Assembly: GCA_003164895.1 (NCBI GenBank)
Contig: PLUL01000079.1
Coordinates: 1-53,404, forward strand
Origin: Bacteroidota bacterium
GTDB lineage: Bacteria; Bacteroidota; Bacteroidia; Palsa-948
Direction of reading: 5' to 3'
DNA length: 53,404 nucleotides
Part shown: positions 27,752 to 48,893 of the stretch, piece after piece
Position numbering within the stretch: the stretch's first letter is position 1
Layout: each line of letters begins with the position of its first letter
Position numbers and translations under genes: made by a program
Notes under the pieces: generated by a model
Told to the model about the DNA's origin: nothing
Seen by the model: the letters and a program-made list of their open reading frames with translations, nothing else
The model's database searches: none

Positions 27752-27816
27752 TGACAACTATCACTTGGATTTGGGATTCGCATCATTTTTCATTAATTTA
27801 AATACAAATACTATTG
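27752..27816 (+). promoter_or_regulatory. Twin palindrome promoter of the acyl-carrier gene
   Basis: Boxes TGACAACTATCA (27752-27763) and GGATTCGCATCA (27774-27785) start 22 bp apart. A -7 element TACTATTG ends at 27816, 31 bp after the proximal box. Same layout as the ten other units in the island. Confidence 0.7.
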
Positions 27817-27854: not shown

Positions 27855-28136
27855 ATGGAAACAAACATCACAATTGACATGGGCTTTGAAGCAAAAGTAA
27901 AAGCCATTATTGCCAATAAATTAAATATTGATGAGAAGATCATTCAACCGGAATCAAACTTTATCAACCAACTTGATGCAGATTCGCTGGATATGGTTGA
28001 TCTTGTAATGGAACTGGAAAATGTATTTAACATCTCAATTCCTTACGGCCAGGCAGAAAAGATAAACACTGTGAAGGAGGTTATGGAATGCGTGCGGCAG
28101 AATATAAATCAACACGAATTAATTATTGCATCCTAA
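27855..28136 (+). CDS. Acyl carrier protein homologue (intact serine)
   Basis: 93 residues, acidic and helical, with the ACP motif D-A-D-S-L-D-M-V-D-L; Ser44 is the expected phosphopantetheine site. The M-E-L-E-N-V-F-N-I-S-I-P segment is standard helix II-III. It is not next to fatty acid synthesis genes, so it is a secondary ACP, here under the island's promoter type. A paralogue with Ser44 changed to Glu is encoded at 39282-39629. The acyl load is unknown. Confidence 0.85.
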   Translation: METNITIDMGFEAKVKAIIANKLNIDEKIIQPESNFINQLDADSLDMVDLVMELENVFNISIPYGQAEKINTVKEVMECVRQNINQHELIIAS

Positions 28137-28658: not shown

Positions 28659-29513
28659 TCAAATAAAGACAGGAGATTCTTTTTTGTGATGAAATGCAAG
28701 CAAAGGTATATGCGTGTGATATGCCACCCTTTTAGTAATGCTTTTGCCAAATAGCTTTTTCCATAAAGTGCGATGTAGTGTTGACATGGAAAACAAATCA
28801 GTAGAATCATTCTTTAAATAATTATCTAATTCTTTTTCAATATCTTCTCCTATAATTACCTGAAAAGAAAAATTATTGTAATCAACTTTTTTTGAAACTC
28901 TGGAAACAAACTGTTTCAATAATTCATTTTCGCCTTCGGGAATAAATTCGCCGTCAGCAATGTGAAGTACATTAATTACTGCTTTGAAGGGTTCTGCAAT
29001 TTCAGATAACTTTTTTATTGCATCCATGTCGCTTTCGTAGTAATTAGTTGCGTAGGTAATTTTTTTAATTCCATGAAATAAAACTCCATCCGGCACTGCG
29101 ATTACAGGATATTGTGATTTTTCAATCACAATTGCTGTGTTGCTTCCAAAAAACACTTCTTGTATTCCGCTTGCCCCTTTTGTACCCATTACAATAAAAT
29201 CGGGATGTATTTTATTTGATACTTCCAATATGACATCAGTAGCAAGTCCTTCCTTGCATATTCGCTCGCACCTCACTTTTTTATTTTGCATTATCTCTAT
29301 ACATAATTTCTTGAGATTTTCTTCTGAATTTTTCTGAACAGCAGAAATTTCTTCAGCAATAATTTCCACCGGAAAATCTGAAATCGGATAGGTATAATGG
29401 TATGCGTGTAGTAGGATTAGCTTTGCGTCCTCTTTTTTTGCAAAAGCAATAGCAAAATCAATTGCATTCTCCGCATTTTTTGAGAAGTCTGTAGGAACAA
29501 GAATAGTTTTCAT
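28659..29513 (-). CDS. Universal stress protein, tandem UspA (1)
   Basis: 284 residues, two Usp domains in tandem. The first has I-L-V-P-T-D-F-S and the ATP-binding loop V-M-G-T-K-G-A-S-G-x-x-x-x-x-F-G-S-N-T-A; the second is degenerate, ending H-T-H-I-P-L-L-A-F-H, and lacks the G-2x-G-9x-G loop. It is 8 bases behind an unknown gene and in the operon led by 30320. Usp proteins support survival under starvation or low oxygen. Confidence 0.9.
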   Translation of the reverse strand: MKTILVPTDFSKNAENAIDFAIAFAKKEDAKLILLHAYHYTYPISDFPVEIIAEEISAVQKNSEENLKKLCIEIMQNKKVRCERICKEGLATDVILEVSNKIHPDFIVMGTKGASGIQEVFFGSNTAIVIEKSQYPVIAVPDGVLFHGIKKITYATNYYESDMDAIKKLSEIAEPFKAVINVLHIADGEFIPEGENELLKQFVSRVSKKVDYNNFSFQVIIGEDIEKELDNYLKNDSTDLFSMSTLHRTLWKKLFGKSITKRVAYHTHIPLLAFHHKKESPVFI

Positions 29514-29521
29514 TTTTAGAT

Positions 29522-29959
29522 TTAGGTGTTAACTATTTTCTTTTTTATAATCGTTTTTTCTACATTAAGAAATATTTTCCTTTTCATCTCTTTAAATTCA
29601 TTTTCAAACAAATGAATTTTATCAGTAATCGCTTTATGTCTTGACCTGTATAGCTGATCGTCAAGTTTTACATTATCAATTAATCTATAGAGAAATTTTT
29701 CATGCACCTGTACTTCAATTTTTAAGTCATCAAGTTTTTCTGCTGAAATATAAACAAGATGTTTCTCGATATCTTTTGCGTCTTTCGTTATAAATGCTGA
29801 GGGGTTTCGTTTTGTTTTTTCAATAATAAATGAATAGAAAAACGCTGCTTCGTCTTTCCAGAATTCAATTTCTTCCAGCCATTCTTGGCTTTCGTTATGA
29901 AGAACTTCAAGCGGTGCTTCCAGCAGAAATGTGCTTTTTGGGGATGTTAGCTGTTTCAT
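29522..29959 (-). CDS. Helical protein of unknown function
   Basis: 145 residues, soluble, strongly helical and charged, with likely coiled coil in the second half (E-N-E-F-K-E-M-K-R-K-I-F). The segment S-Q-E-W-L-E-E-I-E-F-W-K-D-E-A-A-F-F is a notable aromatic helix. No family is recognised. It lies between a small gene (1 base) and a UspA gene (8 bases), so it belongs to a stress operon. Confidence 0.6.
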   Translation of the reverse strand: MKQLTSPKSTFLLEAPLEVLHNESQEWLEEIEFWKDEAAFFYSFIIEKTKRNPSAFITKDAKDIEKHLVYISAEKLDDLKIEVQVHEKFLYRLIDNVKLDDQLYRSRHKAITDKIHLFENEFKEMKRKIFLNVEKTIIKKKIVNT

Positions 29960-29960
29960 A

Positions 29961-30320
29961 TTAAAAATGATTTAGATGTTCGTCTTTTATAAGTTTTATA
30001 ATGGAACGTGCAACAACTGGATTCGATGGGTTTCCATTGAGGCACACTAATTTATATCCAAGCTGAGATAATTTCCAGTCATACGAAATTCCATCGTCAA
30101 AGCATTTATAAATTCGTTGAAAATTTCCTTTTATTGGAATTCCTGCCGACAAACAAAATTCCATAGCGCGCTTTACAGAATCATGCAACTCCTCCAATGA
30201 ATTAAATTCCATTTCACTTGCGGCTTCAGATGCATAATAAAGAAGATTCAATTCTGCAATTTTTTCTACAAACTCATCTATTACAGGAGATGTTTGGGTT
30301 TGAACAAGTGTTAGTTGCAT
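29961..30320 (-). CDS. Conserved-looking protein of unknown function
   Basis: 119 residues, mixed helix and strand, with a Y-Y-A-S-E-A-A-S-E-M-E-F segment, G-I-P-I-K-G-N-F-Q-R-I-Y and a C-terminal N-G-N-P-S-N-P-V-V-A-R-S-I-I-K-L-I-K. It resembles Bacteroidota proteins annotated as damage-inducible but I cannot place it firmly. It heads the operon 30320-28179 with the twin palindrome promoter just upstream and a very short leader. Confidence 0.6.
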   Translation of the reverse strand: MQLTLVQTQTSPVIDEFVEKIAELNLLYYASEAASEMEFNSLEELHDSVKRAMEFCLSAGIPIKGNFQRIYKCFDDGISYDWKLSQLGYKLVCLNGNPSNPVVARSIIKLIKDEHLNHF

Positions 30321-30336
30321 ATAATTAATTTATATG

Positions 30337-30401
30337 CAAAAGTGATTTAAATATTATATGATGAAAATGATTGCAGTCAATACAACGTATGATTTGTGTC
30401 A
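30337..30401 (-). promoter_or_regulatory. Twin palindrome promoter of the UspA/DoxX operon
   Basis: On the minus strand, boxes TGACACAAATCA (30390-30401) and TGACTGCAATCA (30368-30379) start 22 bp apart. The -7 element CACTTTTG (30337-30344) ends 31 bp after the proximal box, 17 bases before the ATG. Confidence 0.75.
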
Positions 30402-30637: not shown

Positions 30638-30702
30638 TGATTACAATCACTTCGGTATTTGATTGTAATCATATCTCTAAGTTGTAAATTTGTACATATT
30701 CG
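30638..30702 (+). promoter_or_regulatory. Twin palindrome promoter of the TerB-like gene
   Basis: TGATTACAATCA (30638-30649) and TGATTGTAATCA (30660-30671) are two perfect TGATnnnnATCA palindromes, and also reverse complements of each other. The -7 element CATATTCG ends at 30702, 31 bp after the proximal box. The following 20 bases resemble those of the 34950 promoter. Confidence 0.85.
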
Positions 30703-30752: not shown

Positions 30753-31154
30753 ATGACACCTCTTGAAAGTTTACATTATGCTATCGGCGAATTAGCTTAT
30801 GCTGTTGCACGGGCGGATGGCAATGTTCAGAAAGAAGAACGAAAAAAATTTCACAACATTGTTGAGGCAGAACTCCGCTGCAAGGACTATGCTTTTGATA
30901 TTTCAGATATCGTCTTTCAAATAATGGACAAAGATAAAATCGATTCAGAAACCACTTATAAATGGGCAATGGATGAGATCAGACTTAATAGTCATTACCT
31001 CAGCCCTAAATTGAAAGAAACATTTATCACAGTAATGGAAAAAGTGGCAAAAGCATTTCCACCGGTTACAGTTAATGAGCAAAGTTTAATTGATAGGTTC
31101 AAAAAGGATATTGCAGTAATAAACGGTGATCCAGTTTTTTATGAAAAGATCTGA
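30753..31154 (+). CDS. TerB-like stress protein (1)
   Basis: 133 residues, helical, with the TerB-type start A-I-G-E-L-A-Y-A-V-A-R-A-D-G-N-V-Q-K-E-E-R-K-K-F. TerB-like domains bind metal at the membrane surface in tellurite and general stress systems. A paralogue is at 48477-48893. It may be co-transcribed with the Mla-like genes, 98 bases downstream. Confidence 0.75.
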   Translation: MTPLESLHYAIGELAYAVARADGNVQKEERKKFHNIVEAELRCKDYAFDISDIVFQIMDKDKIDSETTYKWAMDEIRLNSHYLSPKLKETFITVMEKVAKAFPPVTVNEQSLIDRFKKDIAVINGDPVFYEKI

Positions 31155-34827: not shown

Positions 34828-34892
34828 TGATAACAATCATTACCACTCTTGATCCACATCATATACTGAGATTGTAAATTCATACATCTTCG
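34828..34892 (+). promoter_or_regulatory. Twin palindrome promoter of the eRF1-like/UspA/SDR unit
   Basis: TGATAACAATCA (34828-34839) and TGATCCACATCA (34850-34861) both match TGATnnnnATCA exactly, 22 bp apart. The -7 element CATCTTCG ends at 34892, 31 bp after the proximal box. The stretch between box and -7 is close to that of the TerB-like promoter at 30638-30702. Confidence 0.85.
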
Positions 34893-34949: not shown

Positions 34950-35351
34950 ATGGCAAACGCAAAAAACTTAGGCATTTGGATGGATCATGCAAATGCACAT
35001 TTAATGGAGTTTACAACCGATCCCATTGAAACAAAAACCATTGCTTCAAAATTCACTCACGAGGCAAAAGAAAACACATTGAGTAAGAGTGAACGGCTGA
35101 TGCACAATAAAGAACAGCATGAGCAATCGGAATATTATAAAGTGCTGGGTAATGCCATAAGGAACTACGATGAGGTTGTTCTCTTTGGTCCTACCGAAGC
35201 AAAAGTTGAACTTTATAATGTTTTAAAAGCCGATCATCGTTTTGCAAAAACAAAGATTGAAGTAATACCGACAGATAAAATGTCAGAGAACCAGCAGCAT
35301 GCATTTGTAAGAGAACATTTTTCAAAACCACATTTTCAAACTATAAAATAA
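34950..35351 (+). CDS. eRF1-like/host-attachment-type protein
   Basis: 133 residues. G-I-W-M-D-H-A-N-A-H-L-M-E-F at the start and V-V-L-F-G-P-T-E-A-K-V-E-L-Y-N-V-L in the middle match small bacterial proteins related to eRF1 domains (often annotated as translational machinery or host-attachment proteins). Relatives may act on stalled ribosomes, but this one lacks a visible catalytic GGQ. It leads a unit with UspA and SDR genes. Confidence 0.6.
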   Translation: MANAKNLGIWMDHANAHLMEFTTDPIETKTIASKFTHEAKENTLSKSERLMHNKEQHEQSEYYKVLGNAIRNYDEVVLFGPTEAKVELYNVLKADHRFAKTKIEVIPTDKMSENQQHAFVREHFSKPHFQTIK

Positions 35352-35390: not shown

Positions 35391-36215
35391 ATGATAAAAA
35401 AAATAATTTGCCCCACTGATTTTTCAACCGTTGCAAATAATGCGGTTGAATACGCAGCAAAACTTTCCAGTCAATTCAATGCTGAATTGCAATTGCTCAA
35501 CGTAGAATCATTTTTTCCGGAAGAAGTAATTGCATCCGGTGTAAGCATTGGTGGAAAAGCAGCTTCGGCATCTGAAATGCTTAAAGATACCTGCGCCGAA
35601 GTAAAAAAGGCGTTCAATATTTCATGCACATATGAGGTAGAGGTGAGCAATGCAAGTTTAGAACGAGCCATTGCAGGCAAGGAAAACGAAAACACACTGG
35701 TTGTAATGGGAACTAATGGTGTGGACGATCTTTATCAATATATTTTCGGTACAAATACCTATCATGTAATTAAAAACGCGAAATGCCCTGTATTGATAGT
35801 TCCGGATAATGCAAGATACGAGGTGGTAAAAAAAATAGTTTTTGCATGGGATTATAATTCGCAAGATAAATTATCACTTTCTCAATTAAGCCAGTTTATA
35901 AATATTTTTCATTCCGAAACCATTTTACTTCATATAAGCAAGAAAGAAACTGATATAGGCAACGATGTTTTTCGCGCTCTAAAAGATGAAATACTTTCTA
36001 ATCTTAAAAATGAATCTATCATAGAATTTGAAAGAATTTATTCTAAAGATATTCCGGGAAGTATAAATACATGTATGAAGCAATCAAACGCAAATTTGCT
36101 CGCTCTTACTTTTTACGACAGAGGGTTGATCGGTAATATTTTTCATGGCACTGTGGCAAAAGAATTAAGTGAAACAGTTGCTGCCGGATTTCCTATTCTT
36201 GTACTACATGTTTAG
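35391..36215 (+). CDS. Universal stress protein, tandem UspA (2)
   Basis: 274 residues, two Usp domains. The first has I-I-C-P-T-D-F-S and V-M-G-T-N-G-V-D-D-x-x-x-x-x-F-G-T-N-T-Y, a loop altered from the G-2x-G-9x-G form. The second ends F-P-I-L-V-L-H-V. It is 39 bases after the 34950 gene and overlaps the SDR start by 8 bases. Confidence 0.88.
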   Translation: MIKKIICPTDFSTVANNAVEYAAKLSSQFNAELQLLNVESFFPEEVIASGVSIGGKAASASEMLKDTCAEVKKAFNISCTYEVEVSNASLERAIAGKENENTLVVMGTNGVDDLYQYIFGTNTYHVIKNAKCPVLIVPDNARYEVVKKIVFAWDYNSQDKLSLSQLSQFINIFHSETILLHISKKETDIGNDVFRALKDEILSNLKNESIIEFERIYSKDIPGSINTCMKQSNANLLALTFYDRGLIGNIFHGTVAKELSETVAAGFPILVLHV

Positions 36216-39174: not shown

Positions 39175-39239
39175 TGACAAATTTCATAATCGAGATTGAC
39201 AGATATCATTTTTATTTATATGGACTTGAAATACATTTG
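39175..39239 (+). promoter_or_regulatory. Twin palindrome promoter of the Ser-less ACP-like gene
   Basis: TGACAAATTTCA (39175-39186) and TGACAGATATCA (39197-39208) start 22 bp apart. An exact -7 element TACATTTG (39232-39239) ends 31 bp after the proximal box. Confidence 0.75.
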
Positions 39240-39281: not shown

Positions 39282-39629
39282 ATGGAAACAATAACCATTA
39301 ATCAGGCAGACATTGAAAAAAGAATTAAATCCATTATTGCATGGAAACTTGGTGTAAAAGAAAAGGATATTAAACCGCAATCCATATTCTCAGAAAATTT
39401 TTATGCAGATGAGTTTGATATGGTGGAACTCATCATGGAACTTGAAAAGGAATTTAATATTTCCATCCCAGACGGTAAGATAGAAAAAACGATCACAGTT
39501 AGCGAAGCAGTTCAGAATGTTACTGAGCTGGAAGAGAAAAAATTACGTTTTATTTCTTCTTTCAATATATTAGTCGGTCCACTGCTATACGATAGTTACT
39601 ACGACAAAGAGAATAAATCAAAATCGTAA
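39282..39629 (+). CDS. ACP-like protein with phosphopantetheine Ser replaced by Glu
   Basis: 115 residues from the ATG at 39282; an upstream ATG at 39117 would start inside a terminator. It aligns without gaps with the ACP at 27855-28136 over the first 75 residues (shared F-N-I-S-I-P and M-E-L-E), but the D-S-L of the active site is D43-E44-F45 (codons GAT GAG TTT). It cannot carry phosphopantetheine at that position. A C-terminal extension of about 30 residues (including F-I-S-S-F-N-I-L-V-G) is absent from normal ACPs. Neighbouring motif residues are conserved, so this is not simple decay. Confidence 0.8.
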   Translation: METITINQADIEKRIKSIIAWKLGVKEKDIKPQSIFSENFYADEFDMVELIMELEKEFNISIPDGKIEKTITVSEAVQNVTELEEKKLRFISSFNILVGPLLYDSYYDKENKSKS

Positions 39630-39665: not shown

Positions 39666-41405
39666 TCAAATTAAAGATTCTTTGATTTGCTTTTTGGGTA
39701 TTGTAAATTTGAATTCGCTTCCCATGTTCTCATCACTTTCAACCCAAATTTTCCCTTTATGTCTTTCAATAAATTCTTTGCAAAGTATCAATCCTAAACT
39801 TGTACTTGATTCACTTTCTGTTCCCGGTCTTGAGAAATTTACATCTAATCTGAAAAGTTTATCCTGATGTTCTTTTGGAATGCCAATACCGGTATCAATA
39901 ATGGCTACTTCAATATTGTTGTCTTCAGTTTTTGTGCTGACCGTAATGGAACCATCTCTATGAGTAAATTTAATCGCATTGGTTAACAAATTGCGTATAA
40001 CAACTGATAGTAAATGCTCATCGGCTTCAAAAATAAAATCGTCAGGTATTGTGCTTGTTATTGTAATATTCTTTTCTCTTGCCAAAACTTCTACCTCTTT
40101 TGCGCATGTATTAAATATGTCTTTAAAGTTTAATGGTTGAGGTTCGAATCTAATCCCAATTGTTTGTGAATTTGCCCATGTTAAAAGGTTTTCTAATAGA
40201 TCATAACCATTTTTTGTTGCATTCAAAATCATTTTTGCCTTTGCTTTGCTTTTCGGAATATCGTTATTCTCTAAATGCCTGGAAAGCAAGGATGAACTGG
40301 TTTTTAAAATTGTGAATGGATTTTTTAAATCGTGAGAGATGATCGAAAAGAATTTATCCTTAGTTGCATTCAATTCACGAAGTTTAATTTCATTTTCTTT
40401 ATTTTCAGTAATATCCTGTACAATAGAAATGTGATGTTTGCTATCCTCAATATCCAAAATTGTCGTTACCGACATCTTTACCCAAATAACATTTCCATCT
40501 TTTCGAACGTATCGTTTTTCTATTGCATATGCTTTTTTTTGTTTCTTGATTAATTCTTGCCTGTTTGTAGCACTTTCATCAATATCCTCGGGATAAGTAA
40601 AGTCAAGGAATGTAAGATGCATCATTTCAGCAATACTATAGCCAAGTATATCAGCAAATTTTTTATTTACTTTCACAAATCGTCCGGTAGATGTTTCAAC
40701 TTCAGCAACACCAACTCCTGCTTGTTCAAATAATCTCCTGAATTTTAATTCACTTTCCTTTAATTGTTCATTTACTTTTCTCAATTCTTCTATTTTTTCT
40801 TTTTTTAAGAGGAGATTGGCGTATCCTTTTTGTGTAATTATCTGAGTTAATGTAGCATTGAAATTTTTCATGTGCTCTACCTTATCCAATGAAAAGACAG
40901 GTACTTCATTGACCGATTTCAGGTATTCGGTTTTATTAAAACCAAATTTTTCTGCCTGACGTTCAAAAAACACAACGTCCTTTTCTTTTTCGTTAATAAA
41001 AAATTGTCCGAAGAAAACAGTGGCAATATGTTTCTTTTCTACAATAATAGGATAAGCAACATCCCAAAGACCGTGTTTGCATTTATATGAAATAGGGCAT
41101 TGTGTTGCAAGATTTTTCTTTATAGTGCTATCACTTTCAGCACAATATTTTAGCGATTCGGGATTGATGCGATGAAAATTCACGCAAATATTTTGCCATC
41201 CTGCTGAAGCCAAAACATTACTGTCTTGATCAAGAATGCCTATAGGAAGTCCGGTAAGTTTAGAAAAACTCTCTAACAACCGTTGCATATCACCAATATC
41301 AACTAAATCGGAAAAAGAGTACTCAAAAGAATTTGAGGAGGAATTTTGATCTTTGTTTTGTTCAGACAAAAGTATTTCCATCATAGATAAATTATTTGCA
41401 GACAA
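39666..41405 (-). CDS. PocR-PAS sensor histidine kinase
   Basis: 579 residues. A PocR-type ligand domain (about 32-195; D-L-V-D-I-G-D-M-Q-R-L-L-E-S-F, C-x-E-S-D, conserved Cys) is followed by a coiled linker, a PAS domain (about 220-340; F-E-Q-A-G-V-G-V, ending I-S-I-V-Q-D-I-T-E) and a kinase core with His358 in S-H-D-L-K-N-P, N-box N-L-L-T-N-A-I-K-F, G1 D-T-G-I-G-I-P and G2 S-L-G-L-I-L-C-K. No membrane segment, so it is cytoplasmic. No response regulator is adjacent; the receiver-CRP fusion at 47324 is the natural candidate partner in this island, by inference. No twin palindrome promoter is seen. Confidence 0.9.
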   Translation of the reverse strand: MSANNLSMMEILLSEQNKDQNSSSNSFEYSFSDLVDIGDMQRLLESFSKLTGLPIGILDQDSNVLASAGWQNICVNFHRINPESLKYCAESDSTIKKNLATQCPISYKCKHGLWDVAYPIIVEKKHIATVFFGQFFINEKEKDVVFFERQAEKFGFNKTEYLKSVNEVPVFSLDKVEHMKNFNATLTQIITQKGYANLLLKKEKIEELRKVNEQLKESELKFRRLFEQAGVGVAEVETSTGRFVKVNKKFADILGYSIAEMMHLTFLDFTYPEDIDESATNRQELIKKQKKAYAIEKRYVRKDGNVIWVKMSVTTILDIEDSKHHISIVQDITENKENEIKLRELNATKDKFFSIISHDLKNPFTILKTSSSLLSRHLENNDIPKSKAKAKMILNATKNGYDLLENLLTWANSQTIGIRFEPQPLNFKDIFNTCAKEVEVLAREKNITITSTIPDDFIFEADEHLLSVVIRNLLTNAIKFTHRDGSITVSTKTEDNNIEVAIIDTGIGIPKEHQDKLFRLDVNFSRPGTESESSTSLGLILCKEFIERHKGKIWVESDENMGSEFKFTIPKKQIKESLI

Positions 41406-41651: not shown

Positions 41652-41716
41652 TGTTAAACGTCATTACTTTGATTGACCAAACTCATAGCTTAAATTTATT
41701 TCCCGATTTACTTTTG
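41652..41716 (+). promoter_or_regulatory. Twin palindrome promoter of hsp20
   Basis: TGTTAAACGTCA (41652-41663, weak) and TGACCAAACTCA (41674-41685) start 22 bp apart. A perfect -7 TACTTTTG (41709-41716) ends 31 bp after the proximal box. The rest of the gap from 41406 holds no gene. Confidence 0.6.
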
Positions 41717-41763: not shown

Positions 41764-42249
41764 ATGGCACAATTAGTAGTAAAACGAAATGGGAATGCGT
41801 TCCCATCGTTAATGACCGACCTGCTCGATACCGACAGGTTTTTCGACACAGATCTTCTTGATCTCGAGTCCGATTTATTATTACCACCAAGTATGATTCT
41901 ACCATCGAGAGCAATTGGAAGAATCCCTTCTGTAAATGTTACAGAAAGGGAAAAAGATTTCCTCATTGAACTTGCAGCTCCCGGAATGTCAAAAAAAGAT
42001 TTCAAGGTTGAATTAGATGGTGATGTTCTTTCCATCAGCGCTAAGAAAGAGGAAAAGCACAATGAAAAAGAAAACGGGTTAACCAGAAAAGAATTCTCTT
42101 ACGAATCATTCTGCCGATGCTTTCGCTTGCCCGAAAACAGCAAAGTTGAAAAAATTGATGCTGAGTATGAGAATGGAATTTTGAAAATTGAAATTCCTAA
42201 AAAGGAAATAACGGTTTCTAAACCTAAAAAGGCAATTGCGGTTGCCTGA
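41764..42249 (+). CDS. Small heat shock protein Hsp20
   Basis: 161 residues with an alpha-crystallin domain (about 55-150): P-S-V-N-V-T-E-R-E-K-D-F-L-I-E-L-A-A-P-G-M-S-K-K-D-F, S-Y-E-S-F-C-R-C-F-R-L-P, and Y-E-N-G-I-L-K-I-E-I-P-K-K. The C-terminus lacks a classic I-x-I/V but has I-T-V-S. It is an ATP-independent holdase. Monocistronic, with a terminator downstream. Confidence 0.95.
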   Translation: MAQLVVKRNGNAFPSLMTDLLDTDRFFDTDLLDLESDLLLPPSMILPSRAIGRIPSVNVTEREKDFLIELAAPGMSKKDFKVELDGDVLSISAKKEEKHNEKENGLTRKEFSYESFCRCFRLPENSKVEKIDAEYENGILKIEIPKKEITVSKPKKAIAVA

Positions 42250-42325: not shown

Positions 42326-42408
42326 GCTTTTATTATAATAAAGTTTTTGTGAATTTACCAAAGTAAAAAATTAAAAATGATAAATGTCAGTTCTCATTTC
42401 TATGAAAA

Positions 42409-42451
42409 TGATTCGCATCATAAATAGTTTTTCTAACGTGCAATATATTTG
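42409..42451 (+). promoter_or_regulatory. Palindrome promoter of the phasin-like/UbiB unit
   Basis: TGATTCGCATCA (42409-42420) is a perfect TGATnnnnATCA. An exact -7 TATATTTG (42444-42451) ends 31 bp after it. At the expected distal position there is no good box; TGTCAGTTCTCA at 42385-42396 is a weak match, shifted by 2. Confidence 0.7.
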
Positions 42452-42463
42452 CTTATAAAAAAA

Positions 42464-42847
42464 ATGAAACACATGAAAACAAAAACGTTAATCGAACTTT
42501 TGACATTATCATCAAACATGTATCTGATAGCTAAAGATGATGACTTCTGGAAACGTGTAAGTGAAATGACAGAAAAAGGAAGAAAAACAATCAATAAAGT
42601 GATGGATGAATTTGCCGATGAAGAAAGTGAAGAAAACTCCATGCTTCAGAAACTTATATCAAAAGCAAAGCAGGCACATGAGGAACTGGAACAAAAGATG
42701 GAAGAAGTGGCAGTGAAGGCGTACAAAAAAATGCGCATAGCCCATACAGATGAGATAAAAAAACTCGAAACAGAAATGGAGTTATTAAAAAAACAGCTTG
42801 CACTTGCAGAAGCACGTATCATTATAATTGAACAAAGAAAATCCTGA
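42464..42847 (+). CDS. Phasin/PHA-granule-associated-like coiled-coil protein
   Basis: About 127 residues from ATG 42464 (a second ATG at 42473 is also possible; an in-frame TTG at 42449 overlaps the -7 element). The N-terminal half has L-S-S-N-M-Y-L-I-A-K-D-D-D-F-W-K-R-V and G-R-K-T-I-N-K-V-M-D-E-F; the C-terminal L-E-T-E-M-E-L-L-K-K-Q-L-A-L-A-E coiled coil is the usual end of PHA-granule-associated proteins. Its stop overlaps the UbiB-type kinase start by one base (TGATG). Confidence 0.65.
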   Translation: MKHMKTKTLIELLTLSSNMYLIAKDDDFWKRVSEMTEKGRKTINKVMDEFADEESEENSMLQKLISKAKQAHEELEQKMEEVAVKAYKKMRIAHTDEIKKLETEMELLKKQLALAEARIIIIEQRKS

Positions 42848-44568
42848 TGGGATTTATTTCCTACATAGACGGTAAATACAGTTACATCAAACGGTATAAC
42901 CAGATAATGCGTGTATTGTTCATGTATGGTTTTGAGGATTTAGTATCATACATGGAGGAGAAAAAAAGTTTTAAATGGTTTAACAAATTAATTCCAAAGT
43001 CCACGTATGAACATGCTATGAATCTTTCTAAATGGGAAAAGATTCGCATGGTTTGTGAAACACTCGGACCTACATTCGTGAAATTTGGGCAATTGATGAG
43101 CAATCGTCCTGACATTCTTCCTGCGGATCTGATAAAAGAATTAGAGAAATTGCAAGATAGCGTTCCACCACTTTCAGGAAAAATAGCATCACAGGTTATT
43201 GAACAGGAATTAAAAAAGAAGCCAGAAGAATTATTTGCATGGTTTGAGCCCGAAGCGTTTGCATCGGCATCCATGGCGCAGGTACACCGCGCCACTTTGA
43301 AAACAGGAGAAAAAGTAGTATTAAAGATTCAACGTCCTGAAATAAAACACACGATCGAGCAGGATATTAAAGTGATGTTGTATGTTGCGGAAATTTTTAA
43401 CAGAAGAATTCCTTCTCTCAAAAGCTTTGATCCTATCGGACTTATAAAAAATTTCGAAATCAGTATAATGAATGAATTGGATTTTATTCACGAATCCATA
43501 AATGTTCAGCGGTTCCATAATAATTTTAAGGAAGATGAAACCGACAAAGGTTACATTCATTCTCCAAAAGTTTACCGCGAACTTACAACATCAAAGGTGC
43601 TTACGCTTGAATACATTGATGGAATAAAAATTTCTGATCTACAGAACCTTCATAATAACGGATTAGATAGAAAGCTGGTTGCAAAACGTCTTGCGGTTTC
43701 TTATTTCAAACAGGTTTTTAATTATGGGTTTTTTCATGCCGATCCGCACCCGGGAAATTTATTTGTCCTGCCTAATAATGTCATTTGTTATATAGATTAT
43801 GGAATGATGGGAAGCATCATGACGAACGATATTGAACAGTTCGGAAATTTATTTCTTGCTGTACGTTCAAAAGATGTCAGAGGAATTATCCATTCCATTC
43901 AGCAATTGAGTGATAATCCGATTGTCCGGAATTTCAGGGAACTGGAAACAGACATAAATGAATTCATCCAGAATTATGCTACACAATCTGAAAATGAAAA
44001 TGAATTAAGCACAGTATTACTTGAATTAAAGGATATAATTGTGAAGCATGGATTAAAAGTGCCAACACATTTTTTTCTTATCGCCCGTTCAATGGTAACA
44101 GTTGAAGGGGTAATTCATCAGCTTGATCCTGATTTAGACCTCACCAAAATGGCAAGCCCCTATTTCATCAGAATTGTAGCTAAACATTACAACCCTGTCA
44201 AGTTTGTTAAACGCGTTTTAAATTCTGTTTATGAAATGGGAATGTATATGGAAGATTTTCCACGCGACTTAAAAAATGCGATTCTCAAAATAAATACCGG
44301 TGAAATACAAGTTGACCTCCGACACAAAGGGATTGATCCGTTGGTGCATACATTTAATAGAATTAGCAGGCAAATAATTTCAGCTGTAATAATGGCTTCA
44401 CTTATTATAGGTTCATCTCTGATGGTTGTGTATCACATCACTCCTCTATGGGGAAATACTTCTTTGTATGGAATACTTGGATTTATTGTGTCAGGACTTA
44501 TAGCTCTTAGCATGATGAAAGATTTAAGCAGAGGAGATCACGATGATTGGGCGGGATGGGAAAATTGA
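42847..44568 (+). CDS. ABC1/UbiB (AarF) family atypical kinase
   Basis: 573 residues. The K-x-G-Q motif V-K-F-G-Q-L-M-S-N-R-P-D, the Ala-rich A-S-A-S-M-A-Q-V-H-R-A loop, V-V-L-K-I-Q-R-P with the catalytic Lys, N-E-L-D-F, F-H-A-D-P-H-P-G-N-L-F and Y-I-D-Y-G-M-M-G are all present. Two C-terminal membrane helices follow. Family members regulate ubiquinone or lipid metabolism. Translational coupling to a phasin-like gene suggests a role at lipid or granule surfaces. Confidence 0.92.
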   Translation: MGFISYIDGKYSYIKRYNQIMRVLFMYGFEDLVSYMEEKKSFKWFNKLIPKSTYEHAMNLSKWEKIRMVCETLGPTFVKFGQLMSNRPDILPADLIKELEKLQDSVPPLSGKIASQVIEQELKKKPEELFAWFEPEAFASASMAQVHRATLKTGEKVVLKIQRPEIKHTIEQDIKVMLYVAEIFNRRIPSLKSFDPIGLIKNFEISIMNELDFIHESINVQRFHNNFKEDETDKGYIHSPKVYRELTTSKVLTLEYIDGIKISDLQNLHNNGLDRKLVAKRLAVSYFKQVFNYGFFHADPHPGNLFVLPNNVICYIDYGMMGSIMTNDIEQFGNLFLAVRSKDVRGIIHSIQQLSDNPIVRNFRELETDINEFIQNYATQSENENELSTVLLELKDIIVKHGLKVPTHFFLIARSMVTVEGVIHQLDPDLDLTKMASPYFIRIVAKHYNPVKFVKRVLNSVYEMGMYMEDFPRDLKNAILKINTGEIQVDLRHKGIDPLVHTFNRISRQIISAVIMASLIIGSSLMVVYHITPLWGNTSLYGILGFIVSGLIALSMMKDLSRGDHDDWAGWEN

Positions 44569-45397: not shown

Positions 45398-46036
45398 TTA
45401 CACCTGCATTTTTTTCCACCAATTAGTTGCCCACTCACTATATGCTTGCAACCCTTTGTTTTGAAGTTTTACCAATGTATCTATTTGCGAATTGATATTC
45501 TTGGAAAATAATTTACTGAAGTTTTGTGACAGGTTAAGATGCTTGTTATACACTTCAGTAATATTTTTCATATCCTGATTGGATTGCTCAATGCTTTGCT
45601 CAAACTCTTTCTCATAAAGCTTTAGTAAATCATCATAATTAATTTCATCGGTAGAGTATGCTTTACTAAGTGCTTCCAAGTTTTTTTTATGATTTTCAGT
45701 TATAAGACTCACCCTGCGCGTATGCGAATCAATAATGGAATCAATAACATCATCGGATACATACATAGAATCGACAAAAGCATTGTTAATATCATCTAAA
45801 AATGCTGTGTCAATTGGCTGTCCTTTCAATTTCTCACGGAGTTCGTTCACGAATTTTTTGTTTGCATCAATAGCTTTTTCATAGCTATTTGAGCAGGATT
45901 TAATAATTGCATTAATGTTTTCTTTGGAGTTTTTACTTGCAGCATCCAATTGTTTTTTAAATGCTTCTAATTGTTCTGAAAACGAAAAACTTGTTTCTTT
46001 TACAGAACTGCTTTTAACTTTAGTTAATGTTTCCAT
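45398..46036 (-). CDS. Phasin-like helical protein (paralogue 3)
   Basis: 212 residues, helical and soluble. It pairs with the protein at 8445-9044 over S-K-E-N-I-N-A-I-I-K-S-C, K-F-V-N-E-L-R-E-K-L and S-N-Q-D-M-K-N-I, and with the protein at 2024-2557 in its aromatic tail Y-S-E-W-A-T-N-W-W-K. It therefore links the three into one family. Its gene has a strong twin palindrome promoter. A phasin role is inferred from composition and size; no PHA synthase is in view. Confidence 0.65.
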   Translation of the reverse strand: METLTKVKSSSVKETSFSFSEQLEAFKKQLDAASKNSKENINAIIKSCSNSYEKAIDANKKFVNELREKLKGQPIDTAFLDDINNAFVDSMYVSDDVIDSIIDSHTRRVSLITENHKKNLEALSKAYSTDEINYDDLLKLYEKEFEQSIEQSNQDMKNITEVYNKHLNLSQNFSKLFSKNINSQIDTLVKLQNKGLQAYSEWATNWWKKMQV

Positions 46037-46080: not shown

Positions 46081-46145
46081 CAAAATTATTACAGTTAATA
46101 TGTTTGGGCAATGATTTTCATCAATCCCATCAATGATTCTAATTA
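46081..46145 (-). promoter_or_regulatory. Twin palindrome promoter of the phasin-like gene
   Basis: On the minus strand: distal TAATTAGAATCA (46134-46145), proximal TGATGAAAATCA (46112-46123, perfect half-sites), and -7 TAATTTTG (46081-46088) ending 31 bp after the proximal box. Confidence 0.8.
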
Positions 46146-46269: not shown

Positions 46270-47094
46270 TTAGTCGTGTAATGCAAGTAAAGGTATATGG
46301 GTGTGGAATGCCATTTTCTTAGTATTGCTTTCGTGAACGAGTCGGCTAAGGATATTGTGTTTATGAGGAATCATCGCCACACAATTGCATTTGTGCTTAT
46401 CTGCAAACGCATTTATTTCACCAATGGTATCTTCTGCTGAAGTAAAATTATATGTATGCTTAATATTTTTCAGCAATTTTTCAATCGCTGAACATGCAGC
46501 AGCGTTTTCATAAGTAGAGGATTCAATATGATTAACAACATTCAGAACAAAAACTTTCGCCTTAAATAATTTAGCGAATTTTAAAAATTTATTTATTGCA
46601 TCTTCATGCAAAACTTTGCTGTAATCATACGCTAGCATAATTTTTTTCATGTCCTTATAACGGGCATCCTTAGGAATAACAAGAACCGGAGTTTGAGTTT
46701 GTTTGATAAGAGAAACCGTATGACTTCCAATTAATATTTCGCTAATATTTCCTGTTCCGGTTATTCCCATCACTACTAAATCAACCTTCTTTTCGTTTAT
46801 CACATTCATAATTTCTTCTACTGCAAATCCTGAACGGACAATGGATTGAACCTTAGTTTTCCCTGCAGCTTGTTTTGAAATTTTCTTTTCAAGTTTTTTA
46901 ATTCTTGCCTCGTTCCCTTTTTTCAGTTCTTGTGGTGAGATAATCGCGATATGTACTTCACCTGCAGGAACAGGTATTGGATAAACATGTAGCAAAATTA
47001 TTTTTGCTTTACTGAACTTTGCAAGTTCAACTGCATAGTGCAATGCATTGTTTGCAGTATCAGAATAATCGGTGGGAACAAGAATTGTTTTCAT
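46270..47094 (-). CDS. Universal stress protein, tandem UspA (3)
   Basis: 274 residues. The first domain has I-L-V-P-T-D-Y-S and V-M-G-I-T-G-T-G-N-I-S-E-I-L-I-G-S-H-T-V, an intact ATP-type loop; the second ends H-T-H-I-P-L-L-A-L-H-D. It is divergent from the receiver-CRP regulator gene, with separate palindrome promoters for each in a 229-base spacer. Confidence 0.92.
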   Translation of the reverse strand: MKTILVPTDYSDTANNALHYAVELAKFSKAKIILLHVYPIPVPAGEVHIAIISPQELKKGNEARIKKLEKKISKQAAGKTKVQSIVRSGFAVEEIMNVINEKKVDLVVMGITGTGNISEILIGSHTVSLIKQTQTPVLVIPKDARYKDMKKIMLAYDYSKVLHEDAINKFLKFAKLFKAKVFVLNVVNHIESSTYENAAACSAIEKLLKNIKHTYNFTSAEDTIGEINAFADKHKCNCVAMIPHKHNILSRLVHESNTKKMAFHTHIPLLALHD

Positions 47095-47116: not shown

Positions 47117-47181
47117 CAAATATATTTCGCTTCAATCATTTTTCACATGATAATGCTCATTACAGATTATGATTTATGTTC
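47117..47181 (-). promoter_or_regulatory. Twin palindrome promoter of the UspA gene
   Basis: On the minus strand: distal GAACATAAATCA (47170-47181, one good half), proximal TGAGCATTATCA (47148-47159), -7 TATATTTG (47117-47124) ending 31 bp after the proximal box. Confidence 0.65.
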
Positions 47182-47244: not shown

Positions 47245-47308
47245 TAATAACAATCATATTTATAACTGATATTAATCAGTCGCATTTATATTTACGCCTA
47301 TAACTTCG
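47245..47308 (+). promoter_or_regulatory. Twin palindrome promoter of the receiver-CRP gene (autoregulation)
   Basis: TAATAACAATCA (47245-47256) and TGATATTAATCA (47267-47278, perfect) start 22 bp apart. The -7 TAACTTCG (47301-47308) ends 30 bp after the proximal box, one base shorter than elsewhere. Confidence 0.75.
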
Positions 47309-47323
47309 CATAAAATATTTTTT

Positions 47324-48382
47324 ATGGAAAAAACAATTCTTATAATAGATGATAATAAAGATGTGCGTGAAAACACTGCGGAGATTCTTGAATTCGCAAA
47401 ATATAAAGTACAAATTGCGTCAAATGGAAAAGAAGGCATCCGCCAGGTACAAATTCAAAAACCTGACCTTATCATCTGCGATATCATGATGCCAGAATTA
47501 GATGGATATTCAGTTCTGAGAATACTTGGGAAAGATATTGAAACTTCAACTATTCCGTTTGTTTTTCTCACTGCAAAATCATCAAAAGGTGATTTCAGAA
47601 AAGGGATGATGATGGGCGCTGATGATTACCTCACCAAACCGTATGATGACACTGAATTACTCAACGTAGTAGAAACACGCCTAAAGAAAAGTGAAATACT
47701 TAAAACTGAATTTGCAAAAACTGCTGACGGCTTATCTCAATTTCTTGATAAAGCGAAAGGAATGGATGCGCTCAAAAATATTTCTGTTAAATTTAAGTCA
47801 AGAAAATATATTAAAAGAGAAGGTATTTATTTTGAGGGAAATCATCCGAATGGGATTTATTTCATTAATAAAGGGAAGGTGAAAACATATAAATCAAATT
47901 CAAATGGCAAAGAATATATAACCGGTCTTTTTAAAGACGGAGATTATATTGGCTATAATGCATTACTTGAAGATACGGCATATTCTGATGGTGCTATGGC
48001 ACTTGAAGATTCAGAGATAATACTAATTCCTAAAGAAGATTTTTTTTCATTACTTTTTAATAATCGTGATGTGGCAACAAGATTTATTAGGATGTTGTCC
48101 GATTCTGTAGCGGAAAAAGAAGAACTCCTCATACGGCTTGCATATAATTCTGTACGGAAGCGTTTGGCTGAAGCGTTGTTGACATTAAGTAGGCGATATA
48201 AAAAAGAAAATGAATTATTCAGCATGGCAATACCTCGCGAAGATTTGGCAAGTATGGTTGGCACTGCCATTGAAACCGTGATTCGCACTCTCACGGATTT
48301 TAAAGAGGAGAAATTAGTAGATATAAAGAATAGCACTATCACTATTATTGATCCTGACAAACTCGTCAAGATGAAAAACTGA
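47324..48382 (+). CDS. Receiver-CRP/FNR fusion transcriptional regulator
   Basis: 352 residues. An N-terminal receiver domain (1-122) has D9-D10, phosphoacceptor D53 in I-C-D-I-M-M-P, T83 and K105. It is joined to a cyclic-nucleotide-type sensor domain (about 150-260; G-I-Y-F-I-N-K-G-K-V-K, K-D-G-D-Y-I-G) and a CRP-type HTH (about 275-345; R-E-D-L-A-S-M-V-G-T-A-I-E-T-V-I-R). E317 and R321 of the recognition helix match the residues that read TGA in FNR and CRP. No Fe-S cysteines are present, so it is not an oxygen-sensing FNR. Its own promoter has the boxes found at ten other units, which makes it the best candidate activator. Confidence 0.92.
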   Translation: MEKTILIIDDNKDVRENTAEILEFAKYKVQIASNGKEGIRQVQIQKPDLIICDIMMPELDGYSVLRILGKDIETSTIPFVFLTAKSSKGDFRKGMMMGADDYLTKPYDDTELLNVVETRLKKSEILKTEFAKTADGLSQFLDKAKGMDALKNISVKFKSRKYIKREGIYFEGNHPNGIYFINKGKVKTYKSNSNGKEYITGLFKDGDYIGYNALLEDTAYSDGAMALEDSEIILIPKEDFFSLLFNNRDVATRFIRMLSDSVAEKEELLIRLAYNSVRKRLAEALLTLSRRYKKENELFSMAIPREDLASMVGTAIETVIRTLTDFKEEKLVDIKNSTITIIDPDKLVKMKN

Positions 48383-48384
48383 AA

Positions 48385-48449
48385 TGATATGAATCAACGT
48401 TGTAAATGATACTTGTCATCTTATTCATGCTTCATAATAAATATTTTTA
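48385..48449 (+). promoter_or_regulatory. Twin palindrome promoter of the second TerB-like gene
   Basis: TGATATGAATCA (48385-48396, perfect) and TGATACTTGTCA (48407-48418) start 22 bp apart; -7-like TATTTTTA (48442-48449) ends 31 bp after the proximal box. Confidence 0.75.
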
Positions 48450-48476: not shown

Positions 48477-48893
48477 ATGTTATACAAAGATTTCTATTCT
48501 GAACTCGGCAAACTACTTTATGCGGTTGCTGATATTGACGGAGTAATTACACAATCCGAAAAAAAAGTGTTGCATGAAATTGTAAGGAAAGAACTTGTTC
48601 CTTCAGAAAAACACAAAGACGAATTTGGCACTGATGCTGCATACTATGCCGAAATAGAGTTTGAGTATTTGGAAGAAGAAATAAGTGATGCAGACGCAGC
48701 GTTTAATTCCTTTATTGATTTTGTGGAAGAACACCATACTGCTTTTAATGAGAAAATGAGAAAAATTTGTATACATGTTGCAAAAGAAATAGCAAACGCT
48801 TATCATAAAACCAACAAGAAAGAAAAACTTATTATTAAGAGATTAAAAGAACAAATTGAATTAATAGATACAAATGTTGAAGTAGAATTATAA
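48477..48893 (+). CDS. TerB-like stress protein (2)
   Basis: 138 residues, acidic and helical. The start L-G-K-L-L-Y-A-V-A-D-I-D-G-V-I-T-Q-S-E-K-K-V-L matches the paralogue at 30753 and the TerB domain start. It is monocistronic and marks the right end of the island. Confidence 0.75.
   Translation: MLYKDFYSELGKLLYAVADIDGVITQSEKKVLHEIVRKELVPSEKHKDEFGTDAAYYAEIEFEYLEEEISDADAAFNSFIDFVEEHHTAFNEKMRKICIHVAKEIANAYHKTNKKEKLIIKRLKEQIELIDTNVEVEL

Follow-up and report, generated by a model that had tools for sequence, protein, structure and literature searches.

The window, by which we mean the whole stretch of 53,404 nucleotides of Bacteroidota DNA that was analysed, contains at positions 47324–48382 of the forward strand an open reading frame for a regulator of 352 amino acids in which a receiver is fused to a CRP-type protein; Pfam matches and orthologues in relatives agree with this reading. 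The receiver domain (Pfam Response_reg, residues 5–116, 47336–47671, +) contains the acidic pair D9/D10, the phospho-aspartate D53, T83 and K105. A domain with a cNMP-binding fold follows (Pfam cNMP_binding at 1e-19, residues 160–246, 47801–48061, +), and the protein ends with a Crp-type winged helix-turn-helix (Pfam HTH_Crp_2, residues 279–349, 48158–48370, +) with E317 and R321 in its recognition helix. The regulator belongs to both the response-regulator superfamily, of which it has the full set of receiver residues, and the CRP/FNR superfamily, of which both the cNMP-binding fold and the HTH_Crp domain were recognized by Pfam and Foldseek. In all 31 orthologues of the fusion D10, D53, T83, K105, E317 and R321 are unchanged, and residue 9 is Asp or Glu. 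These residues and domains bear out the preliminary description, which had proposed an intact phosphoreceiver joined to a CRP-type part with a TGA-reading helix-turn-helix. The structure model is of modest quality (pLDDT 75, pTM 0.40), with CRP/FNR structures as best Foldseek matches; it supports the predicted domain folds and says nothing on contact of the receiver with the CRP part.

The four cysteines that FNR requires for its 4Fe-4S cluster are absent from the regulator, as had been claimed, and the only cysteine is C52 in the receiver. In the alignment with E. coli CRP the cAMP contacts E72, R82, T127 and S128 are replaced by Y211, Y220, K265 and E266, whereas G71 and S83 are matched by G210 and S221. 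Because the phosphorylation residues are in place, C52 is the sole cysteine and the cAMP contacts are replaced, the regulator combines, as far as its sequence tells, a CRP scaffold that reads TGA with an input of the phosphorylation type; it has no Fe-S cluster, and cAMP binding is not expected. The ligand that had been put forward as a second input fits poorly with these replacements. C52 (47477–47479) adjoins the phospho-aspartate and does not vary among the 31 orthologues; a redox role is possible, but the residue may also simply be common in receivers of this type.

The genome encodes two further versions. One of them, at C34:86434-87486 (L024 and L027 for both copies), is again a full fusion, with 60% identity, and has a twin box and a cation-efflux-type gene on its 5′ side. 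The other, at C54:23044-23751, is a receiver-less protein with 51% identity and a DNA-binding end as in the fusion.

Paired boxes and promoter geometry

The promoter of the regulator carries a twin box with a spacing of 22 bp, TAAtaacaaTCA-N10-TGAtattaaTCA (47245–47278, +), whose outer (upstream) half-site deviates at one position, reading TAA instead of TGA. The same twin boxes as elsewhere in the region had been described here, which is correct to within this one base. A near-match to the Bacteroidota -7 element, TAACTTCG (47301–47308, +), agrees at 7 of 8 positions, one of the six fixed bases being off, and its offset from the twin box is 22 nt, not 23.

Comparable boxes precede many genes of the window. 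An exact twin box starts 2 bp after the stop codon of the regulator (48385–48418, +), 5′ of a TerB-like gene (48477–48893). The other forward-strand twins lie at 27752–27785 (one mismatch) before an acyl carrier protein gene (27855–28136), at 30638–30671 before a TerB-like gene (30753–31154), at 34828–34861 before the gene 34950–35351 and a Usp gene (35391–36215), at 39175–39208 before another acyl carrier protein gene (about 39282–39629), and at 41652–41685 (one mismatch) before an Hsp20 gene (41764–42249). The last two have an exact -7 element at offset 23; that at 30638 has an exact element only at offset 13. A twin with 31 bp spacing (42378–42420, +) stands before a phasin-like gene (42464–42847) and the gene 42847–44568. 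Reading leftward on the reverse strand, a twin at 30368–30401 precedes the genes 29961–30320, 29522–29959 and Usp 28659–29513, and one at 46112–46145 (one mismatch, exact -7 at offset 23) a gene for a protein of 212 amino acids (45398–46036). A Usp-like gene (46270–47094, leftward) has a single box (47148–47159, −) with an exact -7 at offset 23 and a weak upstream partner with two mismatches.

Single TGAN6TCA boxes are not significantly enriched in the window (32 observed, 24 expected). The exact twin TGAN6TCA-N10-TGAN6TCA is present in five copies (30368, 30638, 34828, 39175 and 48385); first-order Markov surrogates of the window, 300 in number, contained 0.013 on average and never more than 1. 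Composite promoters, which combine box, partner and -7 element, number 9, compared with 0.05 in surrogates. Pattern searches, from which all genome-wide box counts derive, found 12 exact twins in the whole genome, and the reversed control gave 0. The regulator loci of 20 relatives, 364 kb in all, contain a spacing of 22 in 36 instances and every other spacing up to 80 bp in at most 3; the second-best arrangement in the window is the 31 bp spacing, approximately one helical turn further. Since the lone box is not significantly enriched and the twins are far above surrogates, the twin is real, and the signal is the fixed 22-bp pairing, not the lone box. The eleven units listed earlier were all recovered, nine through the composite scan, to which those at 30638 and 34828 are added.

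Elsewhere in the genome, c-type cytochromes, an Fe-S/NrfD complex and a ScdA-type protein near a twin box are candidate targets. A triple box (C34:41770-41825; L021:16771), with three TGAN6TCA motifs each 22 bp apart, lies 5′ of a 4Fe-4S/NrfD gene pair. Twin boxes with the 23-nt offset to the -7 element occur at C71:11185, C43:15786 and C67:10020 at paralogues of window targets (phasin-like, metal-binding-type and TerB-like). At C12:27911 (L087) a twin with one mismatch and an exact -7 at offset 24 precedes an apparent kdpA, a possible potassium-uptake target. An exact twin on contig C74 falls within the coding frame of an aldehyde-dehydrogenase-like gene and probably arose by chance.

The distance from the twin box to the -7 element is fixed as well. 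When the 41 twins at the relatives' loci are read in both orientations (82 sites), TAnnTTTG lies exactly 23 nt past the twin without mismatch in 14 and with no more than one mismatch in 36; the next best offset gave 5. When sixty twin promoters were aligned the 23-nt offset was constant, and the twin with 31 bp spacing (42378) also has its downstream box at this offset, with only the upstream box shifted. An offset of 13 was rejected as a rule, the exact element at 30638 not being kept in the similar 34828 promoter. In Flavobacterium psychrophilum the -7 element spans -12 to -5 (PMC9723704), so the 23-nt offset predicts dimer centres at -41.5 for the downstream and -63.5 for the upstream box. 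Most twin promoters are thus predicted to have a site at the class II position -41.5, as derived from the flavobacterial span. The constant distance to the -7 element argues for direct activation and provides a precise candidate operator, TGAYN4RTCA-N10-TGAYN4RTCA-N23-TAnnTTTG. Positive autoregulation, which had been considered likely, agrees with the twin box at a predicted activating position in the regulator's own promoter, from which a positive sign would follow, and with equivalent boxes and a -7 element 5′ of the regulator or of the kinase–regulator operon in nine relatives besides the window (L060, L061, L063, L064, L065, L067, L070, L073 and L078).

Candidate partner kinase and probable oxygen context

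Of 20 relatives, 19 have a histidine kinase gene directly 5′ of the regulator, often overlapping it; in the twentieth the regulator is at the contig end. For named public genomes, 11 loci were compared: at seven of them a kinase recognized by sequence motif is encoded 5′ of the regulator, at three more a PAS protein of similar size that may be a kinase, and Chitinophaga filiformis has no kinase or PAS gene at this place. A scan of public contigs by receiver motifs retrieved at least 11 full-length fusions, all from Bacteroidota among the matches listed. Carriers of the fusion include Chitinophaga filiformis and Arcticibacter svalbardensis (L103 and L104). The nearest solved structures for the PAS domain of the partner kinases are those of the heme O2 sensors DosP and FixL, and the PAS domain of the Sphingobacterium corticibacter kinase matches FixL structures at about 1e-18. 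A histidine aligned with the DosP heme ligand, which we take to be H77, is present in the partner PAS domains that were read. In some relatives genes for cbb3 oxidase subunits (ccoNO and ccoP), ccoG and ccoI-like ATPases are found near the regulator. This genome lacks the cbb3 subunit FixO, which some relatives encode next to the regulator, so the link to oxygen respiration rests on relatives.

No kinase gene adjoins the regulator in this genome. The closest kinase is an orphan on another contig (C78:11043-12275), which along its length shares 51–55% identity with several of the partner kinases and lacks one of the two PAS histidines found in many relatives; we infer that it is the partner kinase here. 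An internal stop in this gene was ruled out, as the stop precedes the start codon and the gene is intact. A histidine kinase with a PocR domain and a PAS domain is encoded inside the regulon region (39666–41405, −). It was rejected as partner, being only about 23–30% identical to the partner kinases and having a different, unrelated sensor part.

Mechanistic alternatives

Orthologues of the fusion are present in 34 of 60 relatives (E ≤ 1e-60), and the distribution of the twin boxes follows them. The median number of twins is 4.5 in genomes with and 0.5 in genomes without the fusion (60 genomes, p = 2e-8), and 4 versus 0 if one genome per family is taken (p = 6e-7). The association persists within FNR-positive (3e-5) and FNR-negative (3e-6) genomes. 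Genomes that carry the fusion together with a close Fe-S FNR-like protein have 11.6 twins on average; the mean is 4.15 for the fusion only (n = 20), 2.0 for the FNR-like protein only and 0.29 for neither. A quasi-Poisson model with the class II site count as a covariate gave z = 4.7 for the fusion and z = 3.4 for the FNR-like protein. A complete (100%) genome of the same genus (G006) has no fusion and 1 twin, and five other congeners have 4–22. As single class II boxes without any twin also occur in some genomes that have neither protein (8 in G025, 9 in G026), the -41.5 site appears to be general and the second, -63.5 site to go with the fusion. The link between regulator and boxes is thus supported statistically but not exclusively, and as a cross-genome correlation it is not proof of binding.

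We consider it likely that the fusion is a phosphorylation-activated, autoregulated two-component regulator, in which a receiver in the role of FixJ and a CRP/FNR-type activator in the role of FixK are joined in one polypeptide. The preliminary description did not mention the PAS kinase conserved as a partner in relatives, the predicted placement of the boxes at -41.5 and -63.5, or the likeness to FixL and FixK. A cytoplasmic PAS histidine kinase would phosphorylate D53, and the activated dimer would bind tandem TGAYN4RTCA sites 22 bp apart. Positioned at -41.5 and -63.5 on roughly the same helix face, the dimers would recruit RNA polymerase as a class II activator. Activation of the regulator's own gene would make the response self-reinforcing, and the other activated genes would serve stress and respiratory functions (Usp, TerB-like, Hsp20, phasin-like, acyl carrier protein, c-type cytochromes and NrfD complex). 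Low oxygen or redox is the probable signal, the regulator presumably acting microaerobically. What counts against this mechanism is that Fe-S FNR-like paralogues are associated with twins independently, that the kinase is unlinked and FixO absent here, that the second fused copy (C34) and the receiver-less copy (C54) could share or divide the regulon, and that the regulator's own promoter is imperfect in both the upstream half-site and the -7 element. A more tentative extension is that phosphorylated receivers bridge two CRP-type dimers 22 bp apart. In such a phosphorylation-driven dimer of dimers the distance between the boxes, 22 bp (or 31 bp), would be set by the receiver, and the switch would be part of an oxygen circuit extending across the Bacteroidota in which the fusion replaces the FixJ-to-fixK transcription step. 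If true, a receiver-bridged dimer of dimers would be a switch that is, as far as we found, undescribed for CRP/FNR proteins.

The twin boxes could instead belong mainly to the two Fe-S FNR-type paralogues on contig C51 (C51:4757-5476 and C51:5675-6385), with the fusion as at most a minor user or modulator. These paralogues have N-terminal cysteines and the same recognition helix as the fusion (ET..IR; E..IR in Fe-S FNR-like paralogues in general), and a twin box at C51:7133, directly 5′ of a cytochrome gene adjoining the pair, reads towards the pair. The genome G043, with 8 twin boxes, no fusion and only an FNR-like protein, suggests that twins may serve FNR-type proteins too, and since the Fe-S FNR paralogues associate with twins independently, control of the twin boxes is probably shared between them and the fusion. 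That the fusion is only a minor user is nevertheless unlikely in view of the twin counts of the 20 fusion-only genomes compared to those with neither protein. Moreover, the occurrence of twins follows the fusion more closely than that of single sites, G025 and G026 having singles and no twin, and the twin boxes are concentrated at the fusion locus itself.

A different sign of regulation, with the regulator repressing through the twin boxes or shutting off its own promoter, seems improbable. Activation by CRP/FNR dimers classically takes place from -41.5, and the 23-nt offset, constant over 60 promoters, implies contact with RNA polymerase. In favour of repression, the own promoter has the weaker -7 element and the offset of 22 instead of 23, and FixK-type regulators can be negatively autoregulated, as with FixK2 (PMC9104804). 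Improbable as well is a fusion that integrates phosphorylation with a small-molecule ligand in the cNMP-fold pocket. The fold is retained, including the equivalents of CRP G71 and S83, but two of the four replaced cAMP contacts are tyrosines, and in a module conserved with a dedicated kinase a second input is unneeded.

The phosphorylation-activated regulator would probably turn on a low-oxygen and stress gene set, its own gene included, through paired sites common to many Bacteroidota. Low-oxygen gene control is poorly known in this phylum, and the present finding names a concrete regulator, defines a precise candidate operator and points to a likely kinase and to a list of putative targets. 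Its interest lies in the fusion and the tandem operator rule. It also suggests that what takes three steps in the rhizobial cascade is done by two proteins in this phylum.

Comparison with known systems

A word-matching search of the open-access literature returned no description of a receiver–CRP fusion, which is weak evidence of novelty. With E. coli CRP the regulator shares the cNMP fold, the helix-turn-helix, the class II placement and the pair E181/R185 (E317 and R321). It differs in the replaced cAMP contacts, in the change of R180 to I316 and in the extra receiver. The TGA half-site, the E and R of the recognition helix and the -41.5 position are also found in FNR/ANR, but the regulator is without cluster cysteines and takes its input through the N-terminal receiver. 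DosR/DevR is a phosphorylated dormancy regulator that controls many Usp-type genes and an Hsp20, as the regulator here is predicted to do. The output of DosR is of the LuxR/NarL type instead of the Crp type.

The closest parallels are with rhizobial FixL-FixJ-FixK (and hFixL-FxkR-FixK). Both combine a receiver and a CRP/FNR-type activator without Fe-S cluster with a PAS kinase, which here resembles heme O2 sensors by its best structural matches; in addition, cbb3 genes lie near the regulator in relatives, and boxes are probably shared with an Fe-S FNR-type regulator, as with FnrN. The FixK target box TTGAT-N4-ATCAA (PMC7888657) is compatible with TGAYN4RTCA. In contrast to the rhizobial system, receiver and activator are fused here, so that there is no transcriptional relay from FixJ to fixK, and the receiver is coupled to a Crp-type output instead of one of the FixJ/NarL type. 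The boxes are in tandem, 22 bp apart. This genome encodes the candidate kinase at an unlinked position and, with FixO absent, does not offer the cbb3 oxidase (fixNOQP) as a target. As separate FixJ (with LuxR-type output) and FixK proteins and, in this genome, FixO were not found, the regulator is not a strict member of the system. Judged by its sequence features, it would work like FixL-FixJ-FixK with the last two components joined.
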